From: an uncultured Geobacter sp.
GTDB lineage: Bacteria; Desulfobacterota; Desulfuromonadia; Geobacterales; DSM-12255
NCBI GenBank assembly: GCA_937871715.1
Contig: CALMOE010000264.1
Location: 1 to 43,947 of the forward strand
Length of the DNA: 43,947 bases
Reading direction: 5' to 3'
This document shows positions 27,131 to 41,434 of this stretch, piece by piece; positions within the stretch are counted from its first letter, which is position 1, and each line of letters opens with the position of its first letter. Below the pieces are notes generated by a model. The model made no database searches. It had not been told where the DNA came from and saw only the letters and a list, made by a program, of their open reading frames with translations. The position numbers and the translations under genes are program-made.

Positions 27131-27185
27131 GGTACAAACGAAAGCCCCGCCGGTGTCATATACCGGCGGGGCTTTCGTTTGTACC
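27131..27185 (-). terminator. Perfect 24-base inverted repeat, bidirectional terminator of the cytochrome operon
   Basis: The arms 27131-27154 and 27162-27185 are exactly complementary over 24 bases, with a seven-base loop. The core GCCCCGCCGG/CCGGCGGGGC is followed by TTTCGTTT within the arm. It lies 33 bases beyond the stop of the large cytochrome gene and probably ends that operon while also insulating it from the plus-strand gene. Confidence 0.8.
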
Positions 27186-27217: not shown

Positions 27218-30169
27218 TCACCAACTGTCATTCTGATGATTTTTCGAACTTCCTCCCGAAATATGGCAGACCCCCGAACACCGCACTGAAGTGCCGGTGC
27301 CCGTGATCACCAGTGTGCTGTCATTTGCGATGTTCCCTGTTATTGAAAACTGCAGGGTGACGTTGGCCTGGCTCTTTACTACCCTGTTACTGTTGCCGTG
27401 GGTCGAAACACCAGTCCCCCCGCCGGAGTGGCATACTGCGCAGATCACTGCATGGGCGCCGGGGCTGGCATGGCGGCGGGCGATGTTCGGGAAGACAGTG
27501 CCGTTTGGGCGTCCAGCGCCTGATGTGCTGTCGCTCGCCGAGTTGCCGTGACAATCGGAGCAGCGAGGGTCGGTAGTCGGGTTTGCATTGCGATGGCAGG
27601 AGCGGCAGTCTGGCGCTGTTCCGGATGTCGCGGGATAAGTGCTGATGACGGTGCCCATGGCATGGCAGCCGGTAGTGATGCACCCCGTACCGTTGGAGTA
27701 GGATTTGTGGGACGAACCCGGATAACCACCAGTGGAGAGCGGTATCGTGTGAGGCGCCAGTCCGCCCGAAACTTCGAGAGAGCCGTTTATGTGTTTGGTT
27801 GCATCGGTAAATCCGGTGCCACTGCTGTTTACATGGGTGTGGCAGCTGATGCATTGGCTTGGCAAGATGCTGCCATGGGAGCTGGGGGGGTAGCCGTGGC
27901 AGACTCCGCAACCGCTGATGGTCCCTCCCCAGGTGGGATTCTTGCTTGTCCCGCCTGAAAGGGTCGTCCCGTGGCAGTAGGTGTTGCTGCAGACCCCGGT
28001 GGACTGGTTGTAGGAAGGTATAACCCCGCCGGTTTTGGCCAGGGTGCCGAAGACGACCGGATTGGGCATTGGGGTGCTGCTGCGGCTGCGGGCGCGGTTC
28101 AGGTGGTCAACCGTGCCAAGGCCAAGCCCCTGATGGCATTGGTCGCACTTGGCGGTCTGGGTCGAGTTCTCCGTCACATTCAGGCTGCCGTGGGCGGTAT
28201 GGGAGAGGTTGATGTCCGGATATGCCGAGCCGCTTGGCGGCTTGTGGTGGCAGGAGACGCAGTTCACCGGATTTGCCTGGGGATCAAGAAGGTGGCAGTT
28301 CATGCACCCTGGCGGGACCGTGGCATTCTGGGGAATCTGGTGACACCCCAGACAGTAGTTCATGTTTGCCCTTGCCGTGGCATTGTGGTTGTTGTACGGC
28401 ACCGCGTGGGGGGCTACTCCCGGGCCGTTGGCATGGCAGGTGCGGGACTGGCCGAGGCTGTTGGCGAAGGTGGTGCTGAAGCAGCTTGGGGCCGAGGCAA
28501 GGGGGGGAGTCCTCCCCTGGCTTACGTCGTGGCAGAGGGAGCAGGCACTGCTCAGGCTGCCTGCTGTACGATGGGTGTATGTGCCGCTCCCCTGCCAGTC
28601 CGTGGGGTGGGCCTTGGCATAGGGGTGGCAGAGTGAAGAGGAGCAGGCAAGAGGTGCGGTGCCGCCTCCAAAGGAGGTAGATCCCGGCGTCCCGTGACAG
28701 GACTGGCAGATGCGCAGATCCTTCTTCGCCTCCCCGCCATGCACTGTCGGAGCGATAGCCGGCGGTGCGTATGGTATCTGGTGGAAGTGGCAGAGGGTGT
28801 TGTTGAAGCAACCAGCTGTGCCGCTTGCGGGGGAAGGTGGCTTGACATCGGAATTGGCCCCGCCCGTATGGCAGATGGCGCAGGTTGCCGCATTCAGGGG
28901 GTCGGTATTGGTGTGGGTCGAGGCCCCCGCTGTACTGGATGTCCAGGGCTTGGCCGGGTGGGGGGAGGATACCAGCAGCCCGTGGCAGCCGCTCATGTTG
29001 GTGCATGATGGCGGCGTGCCGTTGTTGAAGGTGGAGCCGTGGCAGAACTGGCAGGCTGAGAATCCGGTTGTTGTCGAAGGTGTGCCTTTGGCGGCCGCTC
29101 CGTGTAGGGAGGCGGCGCTCCAGCCGGCCTGGTGTCCTTCTGTGCCGTGGCAGAGGGTGTTGTTGAAGCAGCCGGTAACCCCGGTCGGGTCACCGGCACG
29201 CGGCTTGCGTGACGAGTTGGCCCCGCCTGTATGGCAGGTTGCGCACTGTCCTGCATTGTCTGTGTCCGTGTCGGTGTGGGTGACTCCGCCGCCGCTGGAG
29301 CGCCAGGGGGCAGCCGGGTGCGGTGCGGCCACATTGGTTCCGTGGCAGGCCGAGTTGTTGAGGCAGCTCTGTTCGGCACTGCCGCCGTCGTAATTTGCTC
29401 CGTGGCAGGCGGCGCAGCTGGCGAAAGAGCTGACAGGGCTTGTGCCGTACCCGCCGCTGGCAGCCTTGGCAGCGGCGCCGTGGAGCGTCGGCGCGCTCCA
29501 CCCTGTTGCATGGCCTTCAACGCCGTGGCAGAGGGTGTTGTTGAAACAGTCGGGCGGTGTGCCGGCAGGGGCGGCCGGTGACGGTTTGCGGCTTGAGTTG
29601 GCACCGTTAGCGTGGCAGACAGCGCAGGCAGCCGCATTGCTGTTGTCCGTTGACGCATGGCTACGGGCGCCGGTCTTGGCGATGTCCCGCCATGGGGCCG
29701 GGGAGTGGGCGGCCATAACGTTCACCCCGTGGCAGCCGGCGCTGTTAAGGCAGGATTTCTTGGCCATGCCACCGCTGAAATCTGTGCCGTGGCAGATCTG
29801 GCAATGGGGCATGCCGTTGACCCCTGCCAGCAGTGCCTTTGCCGCCACCCCATGGGAATCCGGGCTCGCCCATCCGGCCGGATGCCCCGATGGCCCGCCG
29901 GCGTGGCAGTTCATGCCGCTACGGGATGAGCTGAAGCAGCTGACCTTGCTGATCCCGCCGGTCAGATCCTTGCCGTGGCATTCATAGCAGGAGCTGGGTA
30001 CTGAGAGGAATGCGGCGGTGTGCTTGCCGCCGGTGTCGGCAACCGCCCATCCTGACGGGTGCTTGCCGGTGCTGGGATCGATGTTGGAGGCCCTGTCATT
30101 GGCTTTGGAGCAGGCAAAGAGGGAGATTACAAGGGTTGCTGTAAATATCCGCCTGTAGAGACATCTCAT
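27218..30169 (-). CDS. Large multihaem c-type cytochrome lipoprotein with mixed haem-motif spacing
   Basis: A 983-residue secreted protein. A lipobox LFAC puts the lipid-anchored cysteine at residue 20. By eye there are 18 CX2CH motifs (starting at 61, 123, 182, 252, 309, 373, 430, 488, 543, 606, 622, 637, 675, 754, 773, 855, 870, 910) and 12 wider ones: CX5CH at 140, 208, 269, 334, 389, 454; CX4CH at 509, 727, 830; CX3CH at 964; CX9CH at 78; CX14CH at 563. Residues about 101-600 are imperfect repeats of roughly 110-125 residues, each with CX2CH, wide, CX2CH, wide (LHGAAAK...HPAAPW...TGGANSSRKP...CFNNTLCHG). This resembles the Geobacter CxxxxCH/CXXCH cytochromes. It is expected on the outer surface, carrying electrons from the porin encoded upstream to extracellular acceptors. 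Confidence 0.93.
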   Translation of the reverse strand: MRCLYRRIFTATLVISLFACSKANDRASNIDPSTGKHPSGWAVADTGGKHTAAFLSVPSSCYECHGKDLTGGISKVSCFSSSRSGMNCHAGGPSGHPAGWASPDSHGVAAKALLAGVNGMPHCQICHGTDFSGGMAKKSCLNSAGCHGVNVMAAHSPAPWRDIAKTGARSHASTDNSNAAACAVCHANGANSSRKPSPAAPAGTPPDCFNNTLCHGVEGHATGWSAPTLHGAAAKAASGGYGTSPVSSFASCAACHGANYDGGSAEQSCLNNSACHGTNVAAPHPAAPWRSSGGGVTHTDTDTDNAGQCATCHTGGANSSRKPRAGDPTGVTGCFNNTLCHGTEGHQAGWSAASLHGAAAKGTPSTTTGFSACQFCHGSTFNNGTPPSCTNMSGCHGLLVSSPHPAKPWTSSTAGASTHTNTDPLNAATCAICHTGGANSDVKPPSPASGTAGCFNNTLCHFHQIPYAPPAIAPTVHGGEAKKDLRICQSCHGTPGSTSFGGGTAPLACSSSLCHPYAKAHPTDWQGSGTYTHRTAGSLSSACSLCHDVSQGRTPPLASAPSCFSTTFANSLGQSRTCHANGPGVAPHAVPYNNHNATARANMNYCLGCHQIPQNATVPPGCMNCHLLDPQANPVNCVSCHHKPPSGSAYPDINLSHTAHGSLNVTENSTQTAKCDQCHQGLGLGTVDHLNRARSRSSTPMPNPVVFGTLAKTGGVIPSYNQSTGVCSNTYCHGTTLSGGTSKNPTWGGTISGCGVCHGYPPSSHGSILPSQCISCHTHVNSSGTGFTDATKHINGSLEVSGGLAPHTIPLSTGGYPGSSHKSYSNGTGCITTGCHAMGTVISTYPATSGTAPDCRSCHRNANPTTDPRCSDCHGNSASDSTSGAGRPNGTVFPNIARRHASPGAHAVICAVCHSGGGTGVSTHGNSNRVVKSQANVTLQFSITGNIANDSTLVITGTGTSVRCSGVCHISGGSSKNHQNDSW

Positions 30170-30184: not shown

Positions 30185-30661
30185 TTACCGATGGCAGGCC
30201 ACGCAGCGCTCGTTGTTGCTGCGTCCGTGGCAGCTGAAGCAGCTTGCCGGATCCAGCTTCCCTTCGATCTTGTGCAGCGTCATGAAGTCCCCCCTGTGGG
30301 GCATGTCACGATCTGGGCGATAGCCGTACAGGGTGGAGGGCTTAATTTCCGTCCTGCTCGCGTGGCAGTCGTTGCAGAAGGAGCTCTTGTGGCATGAAGC
30401 GCAGAGTCGATCGTCGCTGGCGGCGTACTGGCCGTGGCTCTTGACGAAGATCGGCGTGTGGTTGAATGTGTCGATTCTCTTCATGACCCCTTTCTGGGTA
30501 TCATCGTGGCATTCGCTGCAGCTCACCTGCTGGCCGGCGGTCAGGTACTCGGCATGGGAGCCGAACTCACCCGGGACTGCTTTCATGCCGCTGCAAGAGG
30601 CGAGGAAAACGATCAGACCGGCAAGGATCAAGAGAGCTGCGCTGCTGTGGAGTGATCTCAT
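30185..30661 (-). CDS. Five-haem c-type cytochrome lipoprotein
   Basis: A 158-residue protein with a lipoprotein signal (VFLASC, anchored C23) and five CX2CH motifs (48, 87, 96, 141, 153). Between the third and fourth motifs is a haem-free segment (SRTEIKPSTLYGYRPDRDMPHRGDFMTLH) with spare histidines for axial ligation. The gene overlaps the porin gene by four bases and precedes the large cytochrome by 15 bases, so all three are made together. From memory, a small five-haem lipoprotein is also part of the ExtABCD conduit of Geobacter sulfurreducens. Probably on the outer membrane. Confidence 0.93.
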   Translation of the reverse strand: MRSLHSSAALLILAGLIVFLASCSGMKAVPGEFGSHAEYLTAGQQVSCSECHDDTQKGVMKRIDTFNHTPIFVKSHGQYAASDDRLCASCHKSSFCNDCHASRTEIKPSTLYGYRPDRDMPHRGDFMTLHKIEGKLDPASCFSCHGRSNNERCVACHR

Positions 30662-31974
30662 TTCTTTTCTCCTCTGCTGGAATAGGTCGCGTTGTAAGTC
30701 AGGCGAACCAACCCTTTTGTCTCGTTCTGTAGTTGGGGGTTCCTGCCGTAGCTGATGTCGCCGGAGAGTGCCAGGCTGGGTGTCAGGTGGTAGCCAAGGG
30801 AGAGTGAAGCCTCGTAGGCGCTCTTCTCGTCGTTGATCTGCTCCTTGAAGAGCTGGCCGTTGAGCTCGAGTGAGGCGAAGTAGCTCTTGGTGTCATGCAG
30901 GGTGTATACTCTCAGGTCGTGATAGGATGCGGAAGTCGTGCCGATGATGGCAAATCCCTTGTCCGCCTGGAGGTAGTGATATCCCAGGCCGCTGCGCAGG
31001 CTGTTCCCCATGAGGGAAACTTTGATCTCCCCGCCGTAGCGGTCGGCTTTGCCAGCTTCGCGGTCGTAGTGTTTATAATCGAGGGTTACTGTCGCGGGTT
31101 TTGCCATGCCGTAGCTGATGGAGGCGCCGCTGATACGGGATTTGTCGTCCGGATTTGTCAGTGAGGAGGAGAGCATCGCCCAGGTGTAGAGTCGGCTCTG
31201 CTCCCTCTGCTCGGCGAACTCGCCGCTGATTGTCAGCTCCTTCGAAGGCCGCAGGTTGAGCCGGTAGCGGTGCTCGGCAACCTCCTTGGTCTCCGTGTTG
31301 TAGCTCGAATGCCCTGACAGCTCCACCGACCCGTGGGGGCTCAGCCAGATGTCCCCCCCCACCTTGCGGTTACTGCCATTGGCATGGCTTGCAAGTACAG
31401 GCGCCTCCTCCTCGTAAACACCCGATATCCCCAGGTCAAGCACCCCCCTGTAGCGATAGTTGAGCCTGCCGCCGGCGAGATAGTCCCCCTTGCCGTCGCT
31501 GCCTTCGCCGGGGAGATCCTTGACGTGCACGGTGGCCCCGCCGAAGGCGGAAATGGCGAAGCCCATGGGGAGGTCGGTGCGGACGCTTGCGCCGTCAAGC
31601 TGCTCGTTGACTATCCCCTCGCGGTAGAAAAACCTGCCGGCGCGGATGTCGGCATTGCTTGCGTTGAAGCGGTAGCGCAGAAAGCCGTAGGAGAGGTCTG
31701 CGGCGCTCTTGCTGTCACCGTAGCTGGTCTCCCCCAGGTCGGCCCGTCCCCAGCCGTGGATGTGCAGGGAGAGGTTGCCGTCGCCGAGTCTGGTGGCATC
31801 CAGGCCGATGAGCTCGCTGGCGGGCCTCACATCCTGCTTGTCGCCGCCGGTCACATCCCTTTGGCTGAAACGTACCATGGTCGTCGAGTCGACGGAGATT
31901 TCGGCGCTCTGGGCGACACCGCTGAGGAGAAGAAGTGAAAAGATGGGAATGGTCGGGCTCAAGGTAATTTTCAT
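30658..31974 (-). CDS. Outer-membrane beta-barrel (porin) of a putative porin-cytochrome conduit
   Basis: The ATG at 31974 is chosen because a CAGGAG site precedes it and the product then begins with a clean signal peptide (MKITLSPTIPIFSLLLLSGVAQSA) cut before E25. The mature part of about 414 residues is made of alternating aromatic/polar strands (LSYGFLRYRFNASNADIRAGRFFY, GGRLNYRYRGVLDLGISGVY, EHRYRLNLRPSKELTISGEF) and ends in a strand LVRLTYNATYSSRGEKK, as in outer-membrane barrels. No haem motif. With two cytochrome lipoproteins downstream it is likely the barrel that lets electrons cross the outer membrane, like OmbB or ExtB, but no sequence identity to those was tested. Confidence 0.8.
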   Translation of the reverse strand: MKITLSPTIPIFSLLLLSGVAQSAEISVDSTTMVRFSQRDVTGGDKQDVRPASELIGLDATRLGDGNLSLHIHGWGRADLGETSYGDSKSAADLSYGFLRYRFNASNADIRAGRFFYREGIVNEQLDGASVRTDLPMGFAISAFGGATVHVKDLPGEGSDGKGDYLAGGRLNYRYRGVLDLGISGVYEEEAPVLASHANGSNRKVGGDIWLSPHGSVELSGHSSYNTETKEVAEHRYRLNLRPSKELTISGEFAEQREQSRLYTWAMLSSSLTNPDDKSRISGASISYGMAKPATVTLDYKHYDREAGKADRYGGEIKVSLMGNSLRSGLGYHYLQADKGFAIIGTTSASYHDLRVYTLHDTKSYFASLELNGQLFKEQINDEKSAYEASLSLGYHLTPSLALSGDISYGRNPQLQNETKGLVRLTYNATYSSRGEKK

Positions 31975-32080
31975 GTCATGCTCCTGTCTGAAAGATTGAA
32001 GCACCTTGGTTAAGTTACTTGAGACTTGATATGTGGCCAGATTGTTAAGCCGGATGAAGTGGTATTTTGCTGATTGTGAA

Positions 32081-32108
32081 ATTTTATAGCGTAGCTTGAT
32101 GCTGTCAA
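32081..32108 (-). promoter_or_regulatory. Probable sigma-70 promoter of the porin-cytochrome operon
   Basis: On the minus strand: TTGACA (32108-32103, perfect), 16-base spacer, TAAAAT (32086-32081, one mismatch). The leader is about 100 bases and shows no cyclic-di-GMP (GEMM) riboswitch core. Confidence 0.65.
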
Positions 32109-32686: not shown

Positions 32687-33391
32687 CTACATCCCGAGAA
32701 ATGCCTTTTTAACATGTTCGTTATTGAGCAGCTCCTCGCCGCTCCCCTTGAGGACCACCCGGCCGGTTTCCAGGACATAGGCCCTGTTGGCGATGCGTAG
32801 CGACTGGTAGACGTTCTGTTCCACCAGCAGGACAGTTACACCCTGACGGTTGATCTCTTGGATGATCTCGAAGATGAACTTGACCATGAGGGGGGCAAGT
32901 CCGAGGGAGGGCTCATCCAGGAGGAGGAGCTTGGGGTTGGCCATCAGGCCGCGGGCGATGGCGAGCATCTGCTGCTCGCCGCCGGACATGGTCCCCCCCA
33001 GCTGTTTCTCCCTCTCCTTGAGGCGGGGGAAGAGCTGGAAGACCCGCTCCACGTTGCTCTCCCGGTCCGGCCGGGCGCTCTTGATAAACGAGCCCATGCG
33101 CAGGTTTTCCAGGACAGTCATCTCCGGAAAGATCTTCCTCCCCTCCGGTACCTGCACTATCCCCATTTCCACTACCTCATGGGGTTCGTGTCTCGCCAGA
33201 TCTCCGCCGTTAAAGGTGATGGAGCCCGACTGCCATCTGGCCAGGCGGGAGATGTTCTTCAGGGTCGTCGACTTGCCGGCGCCGTTGGCGCCGACCACCG
33301 TGACGATCTCCCCGGCATCAACCTTCAGATCCAAGTCCCACAGCACCTGCATGTCTCCGTAGCTGAAATTGAGTTTTTCTATCTTAAGCAT
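32687..33391 (-). CDS. livF: Branched-chain amino acid-type ABC transporter ATPase LivF
   Basis: A 234-residue ABC ATPase. Walker A GANGAGKST, Q-loop region VQVPEGRKIFPEMTVLENL, signature MSGGEQQMLAIARGL, Walker B LLLLDEPSLGLAP, and the switch histidine region replaced by the LivF-typical VLLVEQNVYQSLRIANRAYVLETGRVVLKG. It pairs with LivG to power the LivHM permease. The gene overlaps livG by eight bases. Confidence 0.93.
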   Translation of the reverse strand: MLKIEKLNFSYGDMQVLWDLDLKVDAGEIVTVVGANGAGKSTTLKNISRLARWQSGSITFNGGDLARHEPHEVVEMGIVQVPEGRKIFPEMTVLENLRMGSFIKSARPDRESNVERVFQLFPRLKEREKQLGGTMSGGEQQMLAIARGLMANPKLLLLDEPSLGLAPLMVKFIFEIIQEINRQGVTVLLVEQNVYQSLRIANRAYVLETGRVVLKGSGEELLNNEHVKKAFLGM

Positions 33392-34109
33392 GGAAGTCTC
33401 CCAGGTAGGCCCGCACCACTTCGGGATTGTTGACGATCTCCTCAGGCGTCCCTTCGGCGAGCTTCTCGCCGGAGGTTAGCACTACTATCCTGTCCGAAAT
33501 GCGCATAATCGCTTTCATGTCATGTTCGATTACCATCTGGGTGATGGTTCCCCGCTGTTTGATCTCCAGAATAAGCTGGATGATCTCCTCGCTCTCCGCC
33601 GGATTGAGCCCCCCCATGACCTCGTCCAGGAGGAGGAGCTCCGGTTTGGTTGCCAGCGCCCTGGCAACCTCCAGCTTCTTCCGCTCTCCTATGGGGAGCC
33701 CTCCGGCAGTGAAATCGGCCTTTCCATCCATGCGCACCACTTGCAGCTGCTCCATGGCGATCTCCCTGGCAATCTTCAGGGAGGAGGTGCGGCAGAGGGC
33801 ACCTACCATGACGTTATCCAGAACTGAAAGCTTTGCCAGGGGGCGAACCTTCTGCCAGGTCCTGACCATGCCGAGTCTGCAGACCTTGTCCGGTTCCAGG
33901 CCGTTCATCCGCTCCCCCTTGAAGATGATTTCACCCCTGGAGGGTGGATAATAGCCGGTTATGCAGTTGAAGAGGGTGGTCTTGCCTGCTCCGTTGGGGC
34001 CTATCAGCCCCATGATCATCCCGGACTCCATGGAGAAGGAGACGTCGGAGTTGGCCGCCAGGCCACCGAAGAATTTGCTGACGTTTTTGATCTCCAGTAT
34101 GGTTGCCAT
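33384..34109 (-). CDS. livG: Branched-chain amino acid-type ABC transporter ATPase LivG
   Basis: A 241-residue ABC ATPase. Walker A GPNGAGKTT, the LivG-type long insertion (NCITGYYPPSRGEIIFKGERMNGLEPDKVCRLGMVRTWQ), Walker B LLLLDEVMGGLNPAE and VIEHDMKAIMRISDRIVVLTSGEKLAEGTPEEI. The signature region reads LPIGERKKLEVARAL in place of LSGGQ, as seen in a subgroup of LivG proteins. It lies six bases after livM and overlaps livF. Confidence 0.93.
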   Translation of the reverse strand: MATILEIKNVSKFFGGLAANSDVSFSMESGMIMGLIGPNGAGKTTLFNCITGYYPPSRGEIIFKGERMNGLEPDKVCRLGMVRTWQKVRPLAKLSVLDNVMVGALCRTSSLKIAREIAMEQLQVVRMDGKADFTAGGLPIGERKKLEVARALATKPELLLLDEVMGGLNPAESEEIIQLILEIKQRGTITQMVIEHDMKAIMRISDRIVVLTSGEKLAEGTPEEIVNNPEVVRAYLGDFHA

Positions 34110-34115
34110 ATCCCC

Positions 34116-35192
34116 TTACCCCCTCCCTTTGCCGGATGACATCTTTTTCACCCACCCAAGCACCCCGTCTGGCATGAAGAGGATGACCACAACGACCAGG
34201 ATGCCGTAGATTAGGGCGTGGGCATGGGCCAGGTGCTCCTTGAGAAAGATTCCGGTCCCCGACTCCTCGGAAGCCAGGCCGGTCTTGAAAATTGCCTGGG
34301 CAATAAGGTTGCTGCGCAGGGCCTCGGAGAGCGGCACAAGGACCAGGGCGCCGACTACCGGCCCCCAGATGGTGCCGATGCCGCCGATGATGCAGATAAG
34401 GACTATCTGCACCGAGATGTCCAGGGCAAGGACCGTCGGCGGGTCGATGAAGCCGATGTAGGCGCCGTAGAAGCTCCCTGCCAGGGAGGTGAATACCGCG
34501 GAGATTGCCAGGGCGCTGTTCTTGTAGAAGGAGAGGTTTATGCCGAGGGAGTTGGCCGCGTCCTGATCTTCGCGGATCGCCTGGAAACAGTAGCCAAGCT
34601 TGGAGTTCTGCACCAGCCAGGTGGTCAGGATTGTGATGATGGCGATGGCCAGGGCGATGTAATAAAATGGTACCTTGGTGAGGAAGTCGGTGACCACCGT
34701 CTCGCCGAGTTTCAGTGGCGGCAGCTCGGTGATGAGAATCCCCTCCGCACCGTTGGTGAGCTCTTTCAGGTTCATGGCGCAGAGGCGCATGATCTCGGCC
34801 ACGGCGATGGAGGCGAGGACGAAATAGGGGCCGCGGAGACGGAAGCAGATGCTGCCGATTATCAGTGAGACCACCAGGGCTACCATGATGCCGGCGAGCA
34901 TGCCGTACCATGGCGGGATCTGCTTGTACTGCAACAGAATCATGGTGGTGTAGGCCCCTGCGCCGAAATAGGCGGCGTGGCCAACCGAGTACTGGCCCGT
35001 ATAGCCGCCGATGATGTTCCATGCCTCTCCCTGGATGGTGGCGAGGAAGAGAAGGATCATGATGTGCAGGGCATAGGGGCTCTGCACGAAGCTAGGGAAG
35101 ATGAAGAGGCCGGTGAGAGCCAGTAGCCCCAGAACCGTTTTCAGTGGTGAAATGCCCGAGTCGTTTCTCATCGTTGCGATTATCCTGTTCAT
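34116..35192 (-). CDS. livM: Branched-chain amino acid-type ABC transporter permease LivM
   Basis: A 358-residue inner-membrane protein with about ten helices. The start at 35192 (MNRIIATMRNDSG) has GGAGGGGAG upstream; the open frame extends further but only as shadow of livH. Family motifs are GEAWNIIGGYTGQYSVGHAAYFGAGAYTT, the EAA-like coupling region QAIREDQDAANSLGINLSFYKNSALAISAVFTSLAGSFYGAYIGFIDP, and QIVLICIIGGIGTIWGPVVGALVL. It sits 14 bases after livH and six before livG. Confidence 0.93.
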   Translation of the reverse strand: MNRIIATMRNDSGISPLKTVLGLLALTGLFIFPSFVQSPYALHIMILLFLATIQGEAWNIIGGYTGQYSVGHAAYFGAGAYTTMILLQYKQIPPWYGMLAGIMVALVVSLIIGSICFRLRGPYFVLASIAVAEIMRLCAMNLKELTNGAEGILITELPPLKLGETVVTDFLTKVPFYYIALAIAIITILTTWLVQNSKLGYCFQAIREDQDAANSLGINLSFYKNSALAISAVFTSLAGSFYGAYIGFIDPPTVLALDISVQIVLICIIGGIGTIWGPVVGALVLVPLSEALRSNLIAQAIFKTGLASEESGTGIFLKEHLAHAHALIYGILVVVVILFMPDGVLGWVKKMSSGKGRG

Positions 35193-35206
35193 GGCCGTCT
35201 CCCCTC

Positions 35207-36073
35207 CTACATCCTGGATTTGCCCATCAAGCCGGCAGGCTTGAAGAGGAGAACGAGAAGGAAGAGGACGAAGACCACCACGTCTTTCCACCCCGAAGAG
35301 ATGTAGACCGCGCCGAAGGACTCGGCGATGCCGATGATGATCCCCCCCAGGGTGGCACCGATGATGCTCCCCATGCCGCCAAGCACGGTGATGACGAAGG
35401 CCTTGAGGGTGAAGGTGCCGCCGATCTGGGGGAAAATGTAGTAGGTGGGGGAGATCAGCGCCCCGGCTGTGCCGGCCAGGGAAGCACCGAGACCGAAAGC
35501 CAGGATCGACATCCACCTGACATTGATCCCCATGAGCTGGGCCGCCTCCCTGTCCTGGGCGGTGGCCCGGATGGCCTGGCCCGTGTCGGTTTTCATCAGG
35601 AACCAGTAGAGGGCGGCGGTGATGGCCGCGGTGATGAGGAAGGAGATGGCCAGGGGGGTGGAGATGGAGATTCCCGCCAGGGTGATGCTGCTGGAGGAGT
35701 ATTCGGTTGTCAGGATCTTGTAGTCAGAAGTGTAGGCCAGCATCATGGTGTTGCTCATTATCAGGCCGAGGCCGATGGTGAGCAGGATCTGGTTCTGGGG
35801 GAGTGCCCCCAGCATCCGGTTGATGAAGATCTTCTGCAGGAAGGCGCCGAAGAGGAACATCAGCGGGATGGTTATGGCGATGGAGGCGAACGGATCGATA
35901 CCCAGGATGGTGAAGAGGTTGTAGGTCAGGTACATCCCCACCATGAGGAGGTCGCCGTGGGCGAAGTTGATCACCCGCATGACACCGAAGATGATGGTCA
36001 GGCCGATGCCGATCAGTGCGTAAACTCCGCCGATGAGGATGCCGCTGATGAGTGACTGGAGGAAAACGGTCAT
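35207..36073 (-). CDS. livH: Branched-chain amino acid-type ABC transporter permease LivH
   Basis: A 288-residue inner-membrane protein with about eight helices. It starts MTVFLQSLISGILIGGVYALIGIGLTIIFGVMRVINFAHGDLLMVGMYL, the standard LivH opening; the coupling region RATAQDREAAQLMGINVRWMSILAFGLGASLAGTAGALI and VITVLGGMGSIIGATLGGIIIGIAES follow. With LivM it forms the transmembrane channel. It is separated from livK by 116 bases containing a heptamer-armed inverted repeat. Confidence 0.94.
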   Translation of the reverse strand: MTVFLQSLISGILIGGVYALIGIGLTIIFGVMRVINFAHGDLLMVGMYLTYNLFTILGIDPFASIAITIPLMFLFGAFLQKIFINRMLGALPQNQILLTIGLGLIMSNTMMLAYTSDYKILTTEYSSSSITLAGISISTPLAISFLITAAITAALYWFLMKTDTGQAIRATAQDREAAQLMGINVRWMSILAFGLGASLAGTAGALISPTYYIFPQIGGTFTLKAFVITVLGGMGSIIGATLGGIIIGIAESFGAVYISSGWKDVVVFVLFLLVLLFKPAGLMGKSRM

Positions 36074-36100
36074 AAATGGCTCCAGGATCGAGGTTAAAGT

Positions 36101-36183
36101 CAGGTACGAGGTACGAGGTACGAGTTTAAAGGCTCGTCTTTATCATGTTTGCCTTGATCCACGCACCTCGCTCCTCGTACCTG
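36101..36183. repeat. Inverted repeat with arms built of 7-base tandem units (GAGGTAC), between livK and livH
   Basis: The left arm (36101-36124) is AGGTAC plus two full GAGGTAC units and a partial one. The right arm (36161-36183) is its complement with about 20 of 23 bases matching. In the liv mRNA it forms a long hairpin just after the binding-protein gene, where such structures commonly protect the upstream message or reduce read-through. The unit differs at two of seven positions from GAAGTAA at 4945. Confidence 0.75.
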
Positions 36184-36189
36184 CTTTGA

Positions 36190-37344
36190 TTATTTCCACT
36201 TAGGGAAAGGGTATACCGGCTTCTTTGAGGCGAAGTTTGTCGGGAAGACGGTTTCGAACTGGCCGTTCTGGATCTGCATCACCAGCATCTGGTGCTTGTT
36301 CTGGTTGGTGAACCCTTCATAATCCTCGAACTTCACGTCCCCCATGATCCCCTTCCATGAGCCGCTTTTCAGAGCTGCCTTGGTCTTCTCCCTGTCTCCC
36401 CCACCTTTGGCAGCGGTCTCGCCCATGATGAGCATCGCCTGGTAGGCGCAGGCGGCGTGGTAGGTAGGCTCCTTGCCGAACTTGGACTTGTAGCGGTTGA
36501 AGAACTCCTTGGCTCCGGGCCAGCTGACGTCGTCGGTCCACTGGGTTGTGGAGAAGACATTGTTGGATATGGCCGTCTCCTTGGCGAACTGCACGGTGGT
36601 GAAGCCGGCCCCCCCGCCGAGGAAAGCCTGGGGCTGGAGCCCTATCTCCCTGGACTGGCGCATGAGGAGAATGGCGTCAGCCACGTAGGAGACCATGAAG
36701 ACCAGCTCAGGGTTCTGTGCCTTGATCTTGGTGAGAGTGGAGCGGTAGTCGGGGGAGCCCTTGGAGTAGGATTCGTCGGCGACTATCTTGATACCTTTCT
36801 TGGCGACATACTCCTTGGCGGTCTTGACGGTGGAGGTGCCGAAGTCTGTGTTCTCGTAGATGAAGGCGATGCTCTTCGGCTTGCCCATGGACAGGGCTGC
36901 ATCGATGAGGGAGGAGGCGTACTTGTCCGCCGGAGCATTGAGGCGATAGACATATTTCAGCCCCTGTCGGGTGATCTCCTCCTTGGCGGCAGCCGGAACC
37001 AGCAGCGGTACCTTGTACTTCTCCGCCAGCTTGGCCACCGCATTGGCGCATGCCGAGGTGTAGGGGCCCACGACCCCGGCCACACCCTGGCCGGCGAGCT
37101 TTTCCATTGCGCTCATGGAGATCTGGGGCTTGCCGGTGTCGTCCTCCTTGAGGAGCTGGACATCGATCCCCTTCTTCTTCAGCTCCTCGATGGCCAGGGT
37201 TACTCCGTTGGTGAGGTTCTCGCCAATGGGCGCCTCCGGGCCGGTGATGGAGTTGATGAAGCCGATTTTCACGCTGGCGGCGCTCGCCATGGCCGGTGTG
37301 GCCAGGGAGAGCATCAGAAAGGATGCGGCAATTTTACGGATCAT
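36190..37344 (-). CDS. livK: Branched-chain amino acid-type ABC transporter substrate-binding protein LivK
   Basis: A 384-residue periplasmic protein with a signal peptide MIRKIAASFLMLSLATPAMA. The mature part has the Leu/Ile/Val-binding-protein fold: VKIGFINSITGPEAPIGENLTNGVTLAIEEL, GVAGVVGPYTSACANAVAKLAEKYKVPLLVPAAA, FIYENTDFGTSTVKTAKEYV and FMVSYVADAILLMRQSREIGL. The substrate could be amino acids, but this family in Geobacter also includes binding proteins for other organic acids. First gene of the unit, preceded by a near-consensus sigma-54 promoter and AAGGGGGT before the ATG. Confidence 0.92.
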   Translation of the reverse strand: MIRKIAASFLMLSLATPAMASAASVKIGFINSITGPEAPIGENLTNGVTLAIEELKKKGIDVQLLKEDDTGKPQISMSAMEKLAGQGVAGVVGPYTSACANAVAKLAEKYKVPLLVPAAAKEEITRQGLKYVYRLNAPADKYASSLIDAALSMGKPKSIAFIYENTDFGTSTVKTAKEYVAKKGIKIVADESYSKGSPDYRSTLTKIKAQNPELVFMVSYVADAILLMRQSREIGLQPQAFLGGGAGFTTVQFAKETAISNNVFSTTQWTDDVSWPGAKEFFNRYKSKFGKEPTYHAACAYQAMLIMGETAAKGGGDREKTKAALKSGSWKGIMGDVKFEDYEGFTNQNKHQMLVMQIQNGQFETVFPTNFASKKPVYPFPKWK

Positions 37345-37560: not shown

Positions 37561-38925
37561 TCAGAGCCCCAGCTTCTCCATCTTGTAGCGCAGGGTGCCG
37601 CGGGGAATCTTGAGCAGGTTTGCTGCCTGGAGCACGTTGCCGCGGCACTCGTTCAGGGCGGCGGAGATCATCTCCATTTCGAAGCGGCAGAGGGCCGCCT
37701 CCAACCCACCTTCGGCAACAGTACCGATGGCCATTTTCTCACTATGGATCTTTGCAGGGCCGATTTCAGCAGGCAGGTGCTCTGGGAGTAGTGCCGGGCC
37801 GCTCTGCATGATGCAGATCCGCTCGATGCTGTTCTTCAACTCGCGGATATTGCCAGGCCAGCTGTAGGCGGAAAGTAGGCGGTGGGCCCGGGGATCGATC
37901 TCCCGGAAGTTCTTGGAAAACTTGCGGCTGTATATTTCGAGGAAGAAGCTGACCAGGGCCGGTATATCCTCCCGCCGCTCCCGAAGGGGTGGGATATGGA
38001 TGGGGAAGACGTTCAGCCGGTAGTAGAGGTCCTCCCTGAACTGCCCCCGGTTTATGCTCTCCTTCAGGTTCCTGTTGGTGGCGGCGATCACCCGGACATC
38101 CACGTCGATGCTCCTGGTGCCCCCCACCCGCCTGATGCTCCTGTTCTCCAGGACGCGCAGCAGCTTGGCCTGCATGGCAGGCTCCATCTCCCCCACTTCG
38201 TCGAGGAAGATTGTCCCCTTGTTGGCGGCCTCGAAAAGTCCGGGCTTGCGGCTGGAGGCATCGGTGAATGCCCCCTTCTCGTGGCCGAAGAGCTCGCTCT
38301 CCAGCAGATTTTCCGGGATGGAGGCGCAGTTTATCTCGATGAACGGGGCTTCCCGCCTGTCCGAAAGGTGGTGGATCGTCTTGGCGATCAACTCCTTGCC
38401 CGTGCCTGACTCGCCGGTGATCAGCACCGTTGCCTCCGGGTGACGGGCCACCTCCCGGGACTGGCGGATTATCTCCTTCAAGGCGCTGCTCACCCCGACC
38501 ATGGGGATCTTTTCGAAGAACTCCAGTTCCCCCTTGCGGATGGCGCGGACCTCCCTCTTCAGGCTGTTGGTCTGAAGGGCCAGCTTGACGATGAGTTTCA
38601 GGGCGTCTGCCTTGAACGGCTTCTTCATGTAGTGGAATGCCCCCAGCTTGATTGCATCCACAGCCGTTTCCACCGAACCGTAGCCGGTTATGACGATCAG
38701 CAGCAGCTCGGGGTCGAGCTCCTTCAGGCGGCGCAGGACGTCGATGCCGTCTTCTCCCCCAAGGTTGAGATCGAGGAGCACCAGGTCGATCTCCTCGCCT
38801 GCCACCAGGTCGGCGGCGCTCCTGCCATCGGCCGCGGCCAGCACCTGGTAGCCGTCGTCCTTCAGCACCCGGGTGACGTTTTCGCGGATGAACTCCTCGT
38901 CGTCAATGATCAGTATCTTTTCCAT
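37561..38925 (-). CDS. NtrC-family sigma-54-dependent response regulator
   Basis: A 454-residue protein from the ATG at 38925, preferred over 38934 because GGAG then stands at a proper distance. Receiver domain (D8/D9, phospho-acceptor D52 in LLDLNLGGEDG, KKPF). AAA+ domain with Walker A GESGTGKE, ELFGHEKGAFTDA, Walker B GTIFLDEVGEM and R-finger regions (YRLNVFPIHIPPLRER). C-terminal Fis-type helix-turn-helix (EMEMISAALNECRGNVLQAANLLKIPRGTLRYKMEKL). The sigma-54 contact loop reads GAFTDA instead of GAFTGA. It overlaps the kinase gene by 23 bases and is likely the activator of the neighbouring livK promoter. Confidence 0.93.
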   Translation of the reverse strand: MEKILIIDDEEFIRENVTRVLKDDGYQVLAAADGRSAADLVAGEEIDLVLLDLNLGGEDGIDVLRRLKELDPELLLIVITGYGSVETAVDAIKLGAFHYMKKPFKADALKLIVKLALQTNSLKREVRAIRKGELEFFEKIPMVGVSSALKEIIRQSREVARHPEATVLITGESGTGKELIAKTIHHLSDRREAPFIEINCASIPENLLESELFGHEKGAFTDASSRKPGLFEAANKGTIFLDEVGEMEPAMQAKLLRVLENRSIRRVGGTRSIDVDVRVIAATNRNLKESINRGQFREDLYYRLNVFPIHIPPLRERREDIPALVSFFLEIYSRKFSKNFREIDPRAHRLLSAYSWPGNIRELKNSIERICIMQSGPALLPEHLPAEIGPAKIHSEKMAIGTVAEGGLEAALCRFEMEMISAALNECRGNVLQAANLLKIPRGTLRYKMEKLGL

Positions 38926-41434
38926 TATCTCCATCTCCTGCCTGTCTGGTCATGGGGAGCCGCACCGTAAAGGTCGTTCCGCTCCCCGCCTTGCTGCTCA
39001 CCTCGATGGTGCCGTGATGCTCCTCCACGATCCTCTGGGTAATGGATAGCCCGAGCCCTGTCCCCCCCTTGCTCCTGGTGAAGAACGGATCGAAGACCTG
39101 CCCCAGGTCGGCGCTATCTATCCCCTGGCCGGTGTCGCTGACTCTTATCACCGCCCAACCGCCGCTGCATTCGGCGGAGACGCTGATGCTCCCCTGGGGT
39201 GGGGTGGCGCTGAGGGCGTTGCGCAGCAGGTTGAGCATCACCTGGCGGATCTTCTCCCCGTCGAAGGCAAATGGGGGTGCCGGTTCAAGGCTGCTGGAGA
39301 GTGTTATCCCGCTGGCGCTGCAGGCCCTGCGGAAGAAGAGCAGCGTCTCCTCGATGAGAAGGTTGATATCCCCGACGCTGAAGCGGGATCGGGGGGGGGC
39401 GGCGTAGCTAAGCAGGGCATTAATCAGCCGCTCCATCCGCTCTATCTCATGGAGCGCCTTCCCCATCATCTCCTTGCTTTCCGGGTCCGTATCCGTCCGG
39501 TCGTGCAGGTCGTCCAGCAGGAGTGTTATGCCGGTCAGGGGGTTCCTGATCTCATGGGCGATGCCGGCCGACAGTTTGCCAAGGGAGGCGAAGCGGTCCA
39601 GCCTGGTCATCTCCTCCCTCATCCGCTCCTTCTCAGTCTCGTCGCGGATGGTTACCGTGATCCCCTGCTCCATCTGCTGGCCGATGGGGAAGATCCCCAC
39701 GTCGAAATGTCTCGTCAGGCTGCCGGTTTCCAGGGTGTAGGGGGAGCGTCCGAATGGCCTTGAGCCGGCGATAGTTGCCTCGATCCTTTGCGCCAGCCCC
39801 GGCCAGGCGGCGAAAACCTCGCTGAAGTGTCTTCCGGCCTTTGCCTCCTCCCCCAGGATTACCCTGCCGTTGGCGTTGATGGAGATCAGCTCCCCCTGGC
39901 GGGAGAAGGGGAGGATGGCGCTGGAGATACTGTTTACCACCCCCGCCATGAGGTTTCTCTCCTCGGTCACCTCCCGGCGGGAGTCGTCCAGCTTGCGCAG
40001 GGTCTCCATGAGGCTGCCGTTTCTCTTCTCCAGCTCGGCGGCCATGCTGTTGAAATCATTGGCCAGCTCTCCGAGCTCATCCCCCGAGTCGATCTCTACC
40101 CTGCTGCTCCCCGAACCGTTTGCCAGGGCCCGTGCCTGGGTGGTCAGCCGGGCCAGGGGGCGGGTTATCCCCCTTGATATCTTCCACGCTGCCAATAGGG
40201 CCAAGGTGGTGGTGAGTGCTAGGAGAAGGGCGCTTTCCCGCAGGTGTTTGCCCATCTGTTCCCGGATGATGGCTGACGCAGCCCTGGCGGGCTCGTGAAA
40301 CTGGTCGGTCTGGAAGCCGATGGTCACTCCGCCGAAGAGTCCGTGGCGGGAGTATGCCCCGCTGCGGTAGGGGATGGGGGCGTAGGCCATGACTTTCTTC
40401 GCCCCGCCGACGTTGGTGGTATCCAGGTAGCCGCTCTTGCCTCTTCTCACCTCTGCAGCCGCCACAGGGTAGTTCGGGTGGATGAAGCCGGCATGGTCCA
40501 GGTTGAAGGGGATCCTCCCCGCATCGATCTCCTTCTGGGCGGACTCCTTCCTGTAGGGGGGGACTAGACGGCCATCTTCATAGCTGCCGCGAATGTCCCA
40601 GAAGTTGGGGTGGGTTATGATCCACCCCTCGTCGTCGAAAATGAAGGCGTAGTTGCCGCTTTTGTAGGAGGGGAAGAGGACCTTGCCGACCCTGCCAGGC
40701 GCCTCGTGCTGGCTGAACTCCATCAGGTGTCGTTGGTCGAGGGAGAGGACTATTATCCCCTCCGGCTCACCACCCCTGCCGAAAATGGGGGTGGCAAAAC
40801 GAATCACCCCGACGTACTCCCGGCCGCCGAAGGCGCTCTCCGAGTCCGGGGCATCCCCCAACTGCTCCTTTTTCGCCACATGGAAGCCGCTCAGGTGGGA
40901 GACGAATATTTCGCCCCGCTTGAGTTTAGTCGTGTCACGGAAGTAGGTTTCACCCCTGTAGAGGGTGTTCGCCGGGTCGGATACATCCCTTAGCTCCATC
41001 CGGGGGAGAAACTTCCCGTCCCTGATGACGATGCGTTGCCTCCCCTTGCGGTCGATCAACTCCAGCATGGAGTACCTGGGGATTACCCTTCTGATCCCCA
41101 CCACGTCCCCTGGTTTCGGGCCGCGCTGCCAGATTTCGCCATGTTTGCTGTCGTAGAAGATGCGCAGGGTCTCGCCGGTCCTGGGGAGGGAGGCGAGGAG
41201 GCGCAGGTCGTTTTCGCATTCGCCGAGGAAACCGGCCAGGTCATCTGCGATCTGCCTAGCCCTGTTCTCCAGGCTCTCCGATGCCTGTTTGTCGGTGGCG
41301 GCGGCGATGCGTGCCGCCAGCTGGCTTCCGGCGCTCTTCAGGTTCAGGAATAGGGTGATCGAGTAGATGGTGATGGGAGCCAGGGTCAGGATGAAGAGTG
41401 ACAGGAAGAATTTCTTGAACAGGGTCAGTTTCAT
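38903..41434 (-). CDS. Membrane sensor histidine kinase with periplasmic Cache-type sensor, HAMP and PAS
   Basis: An 843-residue kinase. Helix one (about 10-31), a large periplasmic region of about 365 residues with Cache-like features (YAFIFDDEGWIITHPNFWDIRG; GKSGYLDTTNVGGAKKVMAYAPI), helix two (about 401-417), HAMP (SRGITRPLARLTTQARALANG), a PAS-like domain (about 491-600), the phospho-accepting H627 in SLGKLSAGIAHEIRNPLTG, then the ATPase N box NLLRNALSAT, VSDTGQGID and GGTGLGLSITQRIVEEHHG. Such sensors detect small ligands such as amino acids or carboxylates, which would suit control of the liv transporter. It precedes and overlaps the regulator gene. Confidence 0.92.
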   Translation of the reverse strand: MKLTLFKKFFLSLFILTLAPITIYSITLFLNLKSAGSQLAARIAAATDKQASESLENRARQIADDLAGFLGECENDLRLLASLPRTGETLRIFYDSKHGEIWQRGPKPGDVVGIRRVIPRYSMLELIDRKGRQRIVIRDGKFLPRMELRDVSDPANTLYRGETYFRDTTKLKRGEIFVSHLSGFHVAKKEQLGDAPDSESAFGGREYVGVIRFATPIFGRGGEPEGIIVLSLDQRHLMEFSQHEAPGRVGKVLFPSYKSGNYAFIFDDEGWIITHPNFWDIRGSYEDGRLVPPYRKESAQKEIDAGRIPFNLDHAGFIHPNYPVAAAEVRRGKSGYLDTTNVGGAKKVMAYAPIPYRSGAYSRHGLFGGVTIGFQTDQFHEPARAASAIIREQMGKHLRESALLLALTTTLALLAAWKISRGITRPLARLTTQARALANGSGSSRVEIDSGDELGELANDFNSMAAELEKRNGSLMETLRKLDDSRREVTEERNLMAGVVNSISSAILPFSRQGELISINANGRVILGEEAKAGRHFSEVFAAWPGLAQRIEATIAGSRPFGRSPYTLETGSLTRHFDVGIFPIGQQMEQGITVTIRDETEKERMREEMTRLDRFASLGKLSAGIAHEIRNPLTGITLLLDDLHDRTDTDPESKEMMGKALHEIERMERLINALLSYAAPPRSRFSVGDINLLIEETLLFFRRACSASGITLSSSLEPAPPFAFDGEKIRQVMLNLLRNALSATPPQGSISVSAECSGGWAVIRVSDTGQGIDSADLGQVFDPFFTRSKGGTGLGLSITQRIVEEHHGTIEVSSKAGSGTTFTVRLPMTRQAGDGDNGKDTDH

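Follow-up and report, generated by a model that had tools for sequence, protein, structure and literature searches.

An operon-encoded Geobacter cytochrome with 18 CX2CH and 12 wider candidate haem sites and a repeated dihaem module

Organisation of the cytochrome operon

The window, i.e. the whole stretch of 43,947 nucleotides that was analysed (contig CALMOE010000264.1 of assembly GCA_937871715.1, uncultured Geobacter sp.), contains an operon with the conserved order porin-like protein, pentahaem lipoprotein and, as the last gene, a large multihaem cytochrome; its genes, their segments and the putative promoter are all on the minus strand. The first gene (30658..31977, ATG at about 31977 and AGGAG before it) encodes a porin-like protein of about 439 aa, predicted to be an outer-membrane beta-barrel from its signal peptide and composition; it returned no Pfam match and a weak Opr-porin match. 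The second gene (30185..30661) encodes a small cytochrome of 158 aa with five CX2CH motifs and the lipobox LASC. The third gene (27218..30169), in which a Shine-Dalgarno sequence (AAAGGAGG) precedes the ATG, encodes a cytochrome lipoprotein of 983 aa with a signal peptide and the lipobox LFAC, and with lipidation predicted at Cys20 the mature chain comprises 964 aa (96.9 kDa as the apoprotein). A putative sigma-70-like promoter, TTGACA-16-TAAAAT, agreeing with the consensus at 11/12 positions, is located upstream of the operon (32081..32108), and a perfect long inverted repeat downstream (27131..27185) is the likely terminator.

Among the homologous loci that were listed, a pentahaem gene directly precedes the gene of the large cytochrome, and homologues of the porin gene adjoin that of the large cytochrome in relatives. 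Both cytochromes carry lipoboxes, in keeping with the outer-membrane redox lipoproteins of porin-cytochrome conduits; no further (periplasmic) cytochrome gene was identified within the operon. The conduits of Geobacter sulfurreducens (extABCD, extEFG and omcBC) consist of an integral outer-membrane protein, of which the porin-like protein would be the counterpart, and cytochromes, and a pentahaem lipoprotein is common to ExtC, ExtF and the operon described here, whereas a large component with 30 sites has not been described for those three systems (PMC6148476).

Of 94 related genomes, 68 had the porin family, in many cases with other cytochromes that resemble the large cytochrome in their N-terminal part. 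Elsewhere in the window, genes for a branched-chain amino acid type ABC transporter are located on the same strand (32687-37344); the genes that come next (37561-41434) encode a regulator of the AtoC type and a sensor kinase.

Haem-binding motifs and module architecture

In the large cytochrome, 30 C...CH pairs were identified, of which 18 are CX2CH and 12 are wide, with spacers of three (one site), four (three sites), five (six sites), nine (one site) and 14 residues (one site), in agreement with the 18 CX2CH motifs and up to 30 sites reported in the earlier note. These pairs account for 60/60 Cys of the mature chain. Outside the 18 CX2CH motifs there are 24 Cys, 12 of them bare and 12 followed by His, and the two kinds alternate perfectly along the chain. 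When the 18 CX2CH motifs were kept fixed and the remaining residues were shuffled 20,000 times, Cys-His occurred on average 1.2 times and at most eight times, so that the observed 12 were never reached, and the perfect alternation by itself has a probability of about 4e-7; the wide pairs are thus not a product of chance. Across 21 homologues only nine of 1125 Cys were unpaired, and four of these nine were in a wrongly trimmed leader. The large cytochrome would contain 3.2 kDa of polypeptide per haem with 30 haems and 5.4 kDa with 18. Electron-transfer multihaem cytochromes that belong to the peptide-minimised group have <5 kDa per haem (PMC7096707), which favours the higher number.

The basic repeat is a dihaem module of about 60 aa, nine of which follow one another at residues 61-605, each combining a CX2CH with a second CXnCH, in most cases a wide one, and generally with two further His. 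Module 1 (residues 61-122, 29804..29989) has CX2CH, CX9CH and three other His. Modules 2-3 (residues 123-251, 29417..29803) have the order CX2CH, CX5CH (CLNSAGCH), CX2CH and CX5CH (CFNNTLCH) with four other His, and the same layout and number of His recur in modules 4-5 (residues 252-372, 29054..29416) and modules 6-7 (residues 373-487, 28709..29053). In modules 8-9 (residues 488-605, 28355..28708), also with four other His, the order is CX2CH, CX4CH (C509/C514), CX2CH and CX14CH. Two types of module are discerned: type A with a CLNSAGCH-like motif followed by APH...PW...H, and type B with CFNNTLCH followed by GH..GW...HG. The residues previously assigned to CFNNTLCH (C208/C214, C334/C340 and C454/C460) and to CX14CH (C563, C578 and H579) were all correct. 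The four-motif units of the earlier note do exist as an order of motifs, but the true repeat is the dihaem module, one such unit being two modules.

The C-terminal part (residues 606-983, 27221..28354) has 12 further predicted haem sites, among them three wide ones with spacers X4 (727-733), X4 (830-836) and X3 (964-969), and it carries the matches to TIGR01904/PF09698 and Cytochrom_c3_2. The TIGR01904 match (52.2 bits against a cut-off of 27) covers residues 713-766, a CX4CH followed by a CX2CH, and the PF09698 match was slightly under its cut-off (20.7 against 21.7). Likeness to the 'CxxxxCH/CxxCH domain' cytochromes of Geobacter is limited to this single stretch; none of the nine N-terminal modules matched either family, from which they differ in their X5, X9 and X14 spacers, in the order of motifs and in the two further His. 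No convincing relative of the large cytochrome emerged when solved structures were searched by sequence and by profile.

In the orthologues L008 and L009, 37 sites were counted, with seven more in the C-terminal part and the same number of N-terminal modules, nine.

Conservation of the wide sites

An alignment of homologues, which the earlier note had proposed as a check on the Cys and His of the wide motifs, was made of 12 sequences, the large cytochrome and 11 orthologues that share about 57-67% identity with it across the region matched. Conservation at the wide sites came close to that at the CX2CH sites: the first Cys at 0.92 against 0.98, the second at 1.00 against 0.99, and the His at 0.99 in both, when the mean over all positions was 0.63. 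Of the other His, 28/34 were at least 90% conserved. The second motif of module 1 had the X9 spacer in 13/13 aligned orthologues.

Haem might instead be bound at the 18 CX2CH sites only, in which case the wide Cys pairs would form module-stiffening disulphides and the His next to them would be spare or serve as distal ligands, but we regard this as very improbable. Disulphides are frequent in extracellular proteins, motif-based haem counts usually take in CX2CH alone, and AlphaFold2 models made with 20-21 homologues give no argument against 18 haems, their mean pLDDT (35.8 at full length, 39.5 for residues 21-610) being too low for haem geometry to be checked. On the other side, the His directly after the second Cys is kept in 98.6% of the wide sites.

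Interchange of spacer lengths

Also against a restriction to 18 haems, several positions equivalent to wide sites are CX2CH in homologues. For one type of site, spacers of 2, 3, 4, 5, 9, 12 and 17 residues were found at equivalent positions. Site 16 (28625..28645) is CX4CH (CSSSLCH) in the large cytochrome and CX2CH (CSSCH) in 13/13 orthologues, ACSSSLCH differing from ACSSCH by a private in-frame insertion of 6 bp. At site 4, orthologues have X5 and most paralogues X2, but L020 has X12 and L028 has X17, with constant flanks; L019 and L021, the relatives of L020, have X2 there. Site 26 has X4 in the large cytochrome, X6 in most orthologues and X2 in three, and site 30 has X3 here and X7 or X9 in others. 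Compared in this way, the sequences clearly indicate that spacers were lengthened by insertion at site 16 (X2 to X4) and, in L020, at site 4 (X2 to X12). The CFNNTLCH type had X5 in all 54 modules and a CX2CH form in none, and module 1 had X9 or X10, never CX2CH, as its second motif in the homologues compared, so that interchange with CX2CH applies to the other types of site.

The CX14CH site

Site 18 (28433..28483, CFSTTFANSLGQSRTCH) is the CX14CH motif of module 9, and its Cys, Cys and His are invariant in homologues, in which the spacer ranges from 8 to 19 residues (8, 9, 13, 14, 16 and 19), with one weak match of X2 in a similar context. The X14 loop itself is conserved with the pattern CF...F.N...Q...CH, so that a role beyond that of a mere filler is possible; deletion of the comparable loop of OmcZ was reported to suppress the reduction of soluble acceptors (PMC11208441). 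No match to the loop pattern was found in viral contigs, and the plasmid search gave none.

An origin of this site by insertion into a CX5CH site, as had been suggested, is only indirectly supported. The module resembles the CFNNTLCH profile weakly (mean 6.7 bits, vs 3.3 to the other type of module), X5 was not found at this position in any homologue, and it is at other sites that gain by insertion is clear.

The parallel with OmcZ, the octahaem nanowire cytochrome of G. sulfurreducens, is borne out as far as the motif goes: in the solved structure, haem 1 is bound at a C(X14)CH site, of which the extra residues form a loop (PMC9473688). OmcZ also has bis-His haems in a largely irregular chain, a ligation that would hold for the large cytochrome as well. 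OmcZ differs, however, in that it has eight haems and a single wide motif, is processed by OzpA and polymerises. The large cytochrome has 12 wide motifs and is predicted to be a lipoprotein, and no OmcZ chain was among the PDB matches of the protein, of its profile or of the profile of the CX14CH module. The sulphite reductases MccA and SirA similarly bind haem at a very wide motif, but theirs is a single site, which activity requires and for which there is a dedicated haem lyase, and not one of many repeated sites (PMC12285233, PMC6976685).

An occupancy between 18 and 30 haems, with the X3 to X5 sites always loaded and X9 and X14 only by a dedicated haem lyase, is unlikely, though less so than haem at the CX2CH sites alone. 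The CX15CH of MccA requires CcsA1 and SirA requires SirEFG (PMC12285233, PMC6976685), and the host encodes several ResB and CcsA-like proteins: ResB/Cytochrom_C_asm proteins were found in its own genome on contigs C31, C114, C132, C36, C170, C192 and C237, and may represent several System II haem lyases. Partial loading agrees poorly, however, with X9 and X14 sites that are invariant or nearly so among orthologues. It agrees poorly also with a distant 28-site relative, the 798-aa frame L064 (G154:C32) from another family of the same phylum, in which the tetrahaem unit of modules 8-9, there in the form CX2CH-CX2CH-CX2CH-CX14CH, occurs four times in tandem, each copy with exactly four other His for its three CX2CH and one CX14CH. 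This four-fold tandem is, as read from its sequence, a duplication of the unit. Two apparent X13 sites in L064 were rejected as an artefact of counting CHLCH/CHNCH twice.

Histidines outside the motifs

A bis-His haem requires one His beyond that of the motif. Modules with a wide second motif had on average 2.09 other His (n=155) and those with a CX2CH second motif 2.08 (n=36), with a variance of 0.28, when about 2.1 would be expected of a random scatter; no other His was present in six wide modules of paralogues. In 21 trimmed proteins of the module family, which have 16-37 sites each, there were 1.0-1.2 other His per site, and the number of other His was fitted as -0.6 + 1.07 (0.10) per CX2CH + 1.26 (0.13) per wide site; a model with CX2CH only was poorer by 36 to 37 AIC units. 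The standard errors are optimistic because the sequences are related and not independent; for ten spread-out members, the slopes were 1.04 per CX2CH and 1.33 per wide site. A cruder and wider set of 35 proteins, among them untrimmed frames and cytochromes of other types, yielded 1.57 (0.09) per CX2CH and 0.57 (0.13) per wide site; the fit thus depends on the set of proteins, and that of the 21 was made with a better motif parser.

That the other His scale with wide sites as they do with CX2CH sites is a further argument against haem at CX2CH alone, which would moreover leave three conserved His per module, besides that of the CX2CH, for one haem.

Haem number and spacer evolution

The complete accounting of Cys, the near-complete conservation, the equal His economy and the interchange with CX2CH at several positions all argue for the suggestion of the earlier note that the wide sites are functional, and for a 30-haem rather than an 18-haem cytochrome. 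The large cytochrome is thus very probably the outer lipoprotein of a porin-cytochrome conduit that binds 30 haems c, with n = 3 to 14 at the 12 wide sites. Judged by the homologues, the gap between the haem-holding Cys could range from two to about 19 residues at sites that are still conserved, and for this reason 30 haems are preferred to 18. At the wide sites, both Cys and the adjacent His would act as in CX2CH, the Cys through two thioether bonds and the His as the proximal ligand of the iron, and the additional spacer residues would loop out. The two further His per module would serve as distal ligands, making the haems bis-His, and the dense array of haems would take electrons from the small pentahaem cytochrome and the porin to extracellular acceptors, presumably at the cell surface.

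At many sites the length of the spacer would be nearly free provided that Cys, Cys and His stay, so that spacers may grow and shrink in evolution. A more general reading, for which the odds are slightly better than even, is that in this family the gap between the Cys is a freely evolving loop, anywhere from two to about 19 residues long, at many sites within a single protein, and that all these sites are loaded by the haem lyases of the host.

Wide motifs occurring singly are already known (CX14CH of OmcZ, CX15CH of MccA, and SirA), and so is CX4CH in TIGR01904. The dihaem repeat, with a fixed CX2CH and a second site whose length varies freely, and the natural series from X2 to X19 appear to be little described; in the literature searched, CX5CH was not found with cytochrome, nor, as judged by titles, CX9CH in the haem sense.

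Genome surveys usually derive their haem counts from CXXCH. If the wide sites are loaded, these counts are too low for the family of the large cytochrome (18 counted, 30 likely), and models of the electron path through surface conduits would be affected too. If the gap is a freely evolving loop, many surface cytochromes are undercounted in haem, the large cytochrome by two fifths. Among the homologues, spacers of graded length occur naturally within one constant context, and the loop tolerance of haem lyases is directly testable on this series.

At site 30 of L006 and L007, both Cys were kept and the His was gone, which may represent a haem site in the course of being lost.
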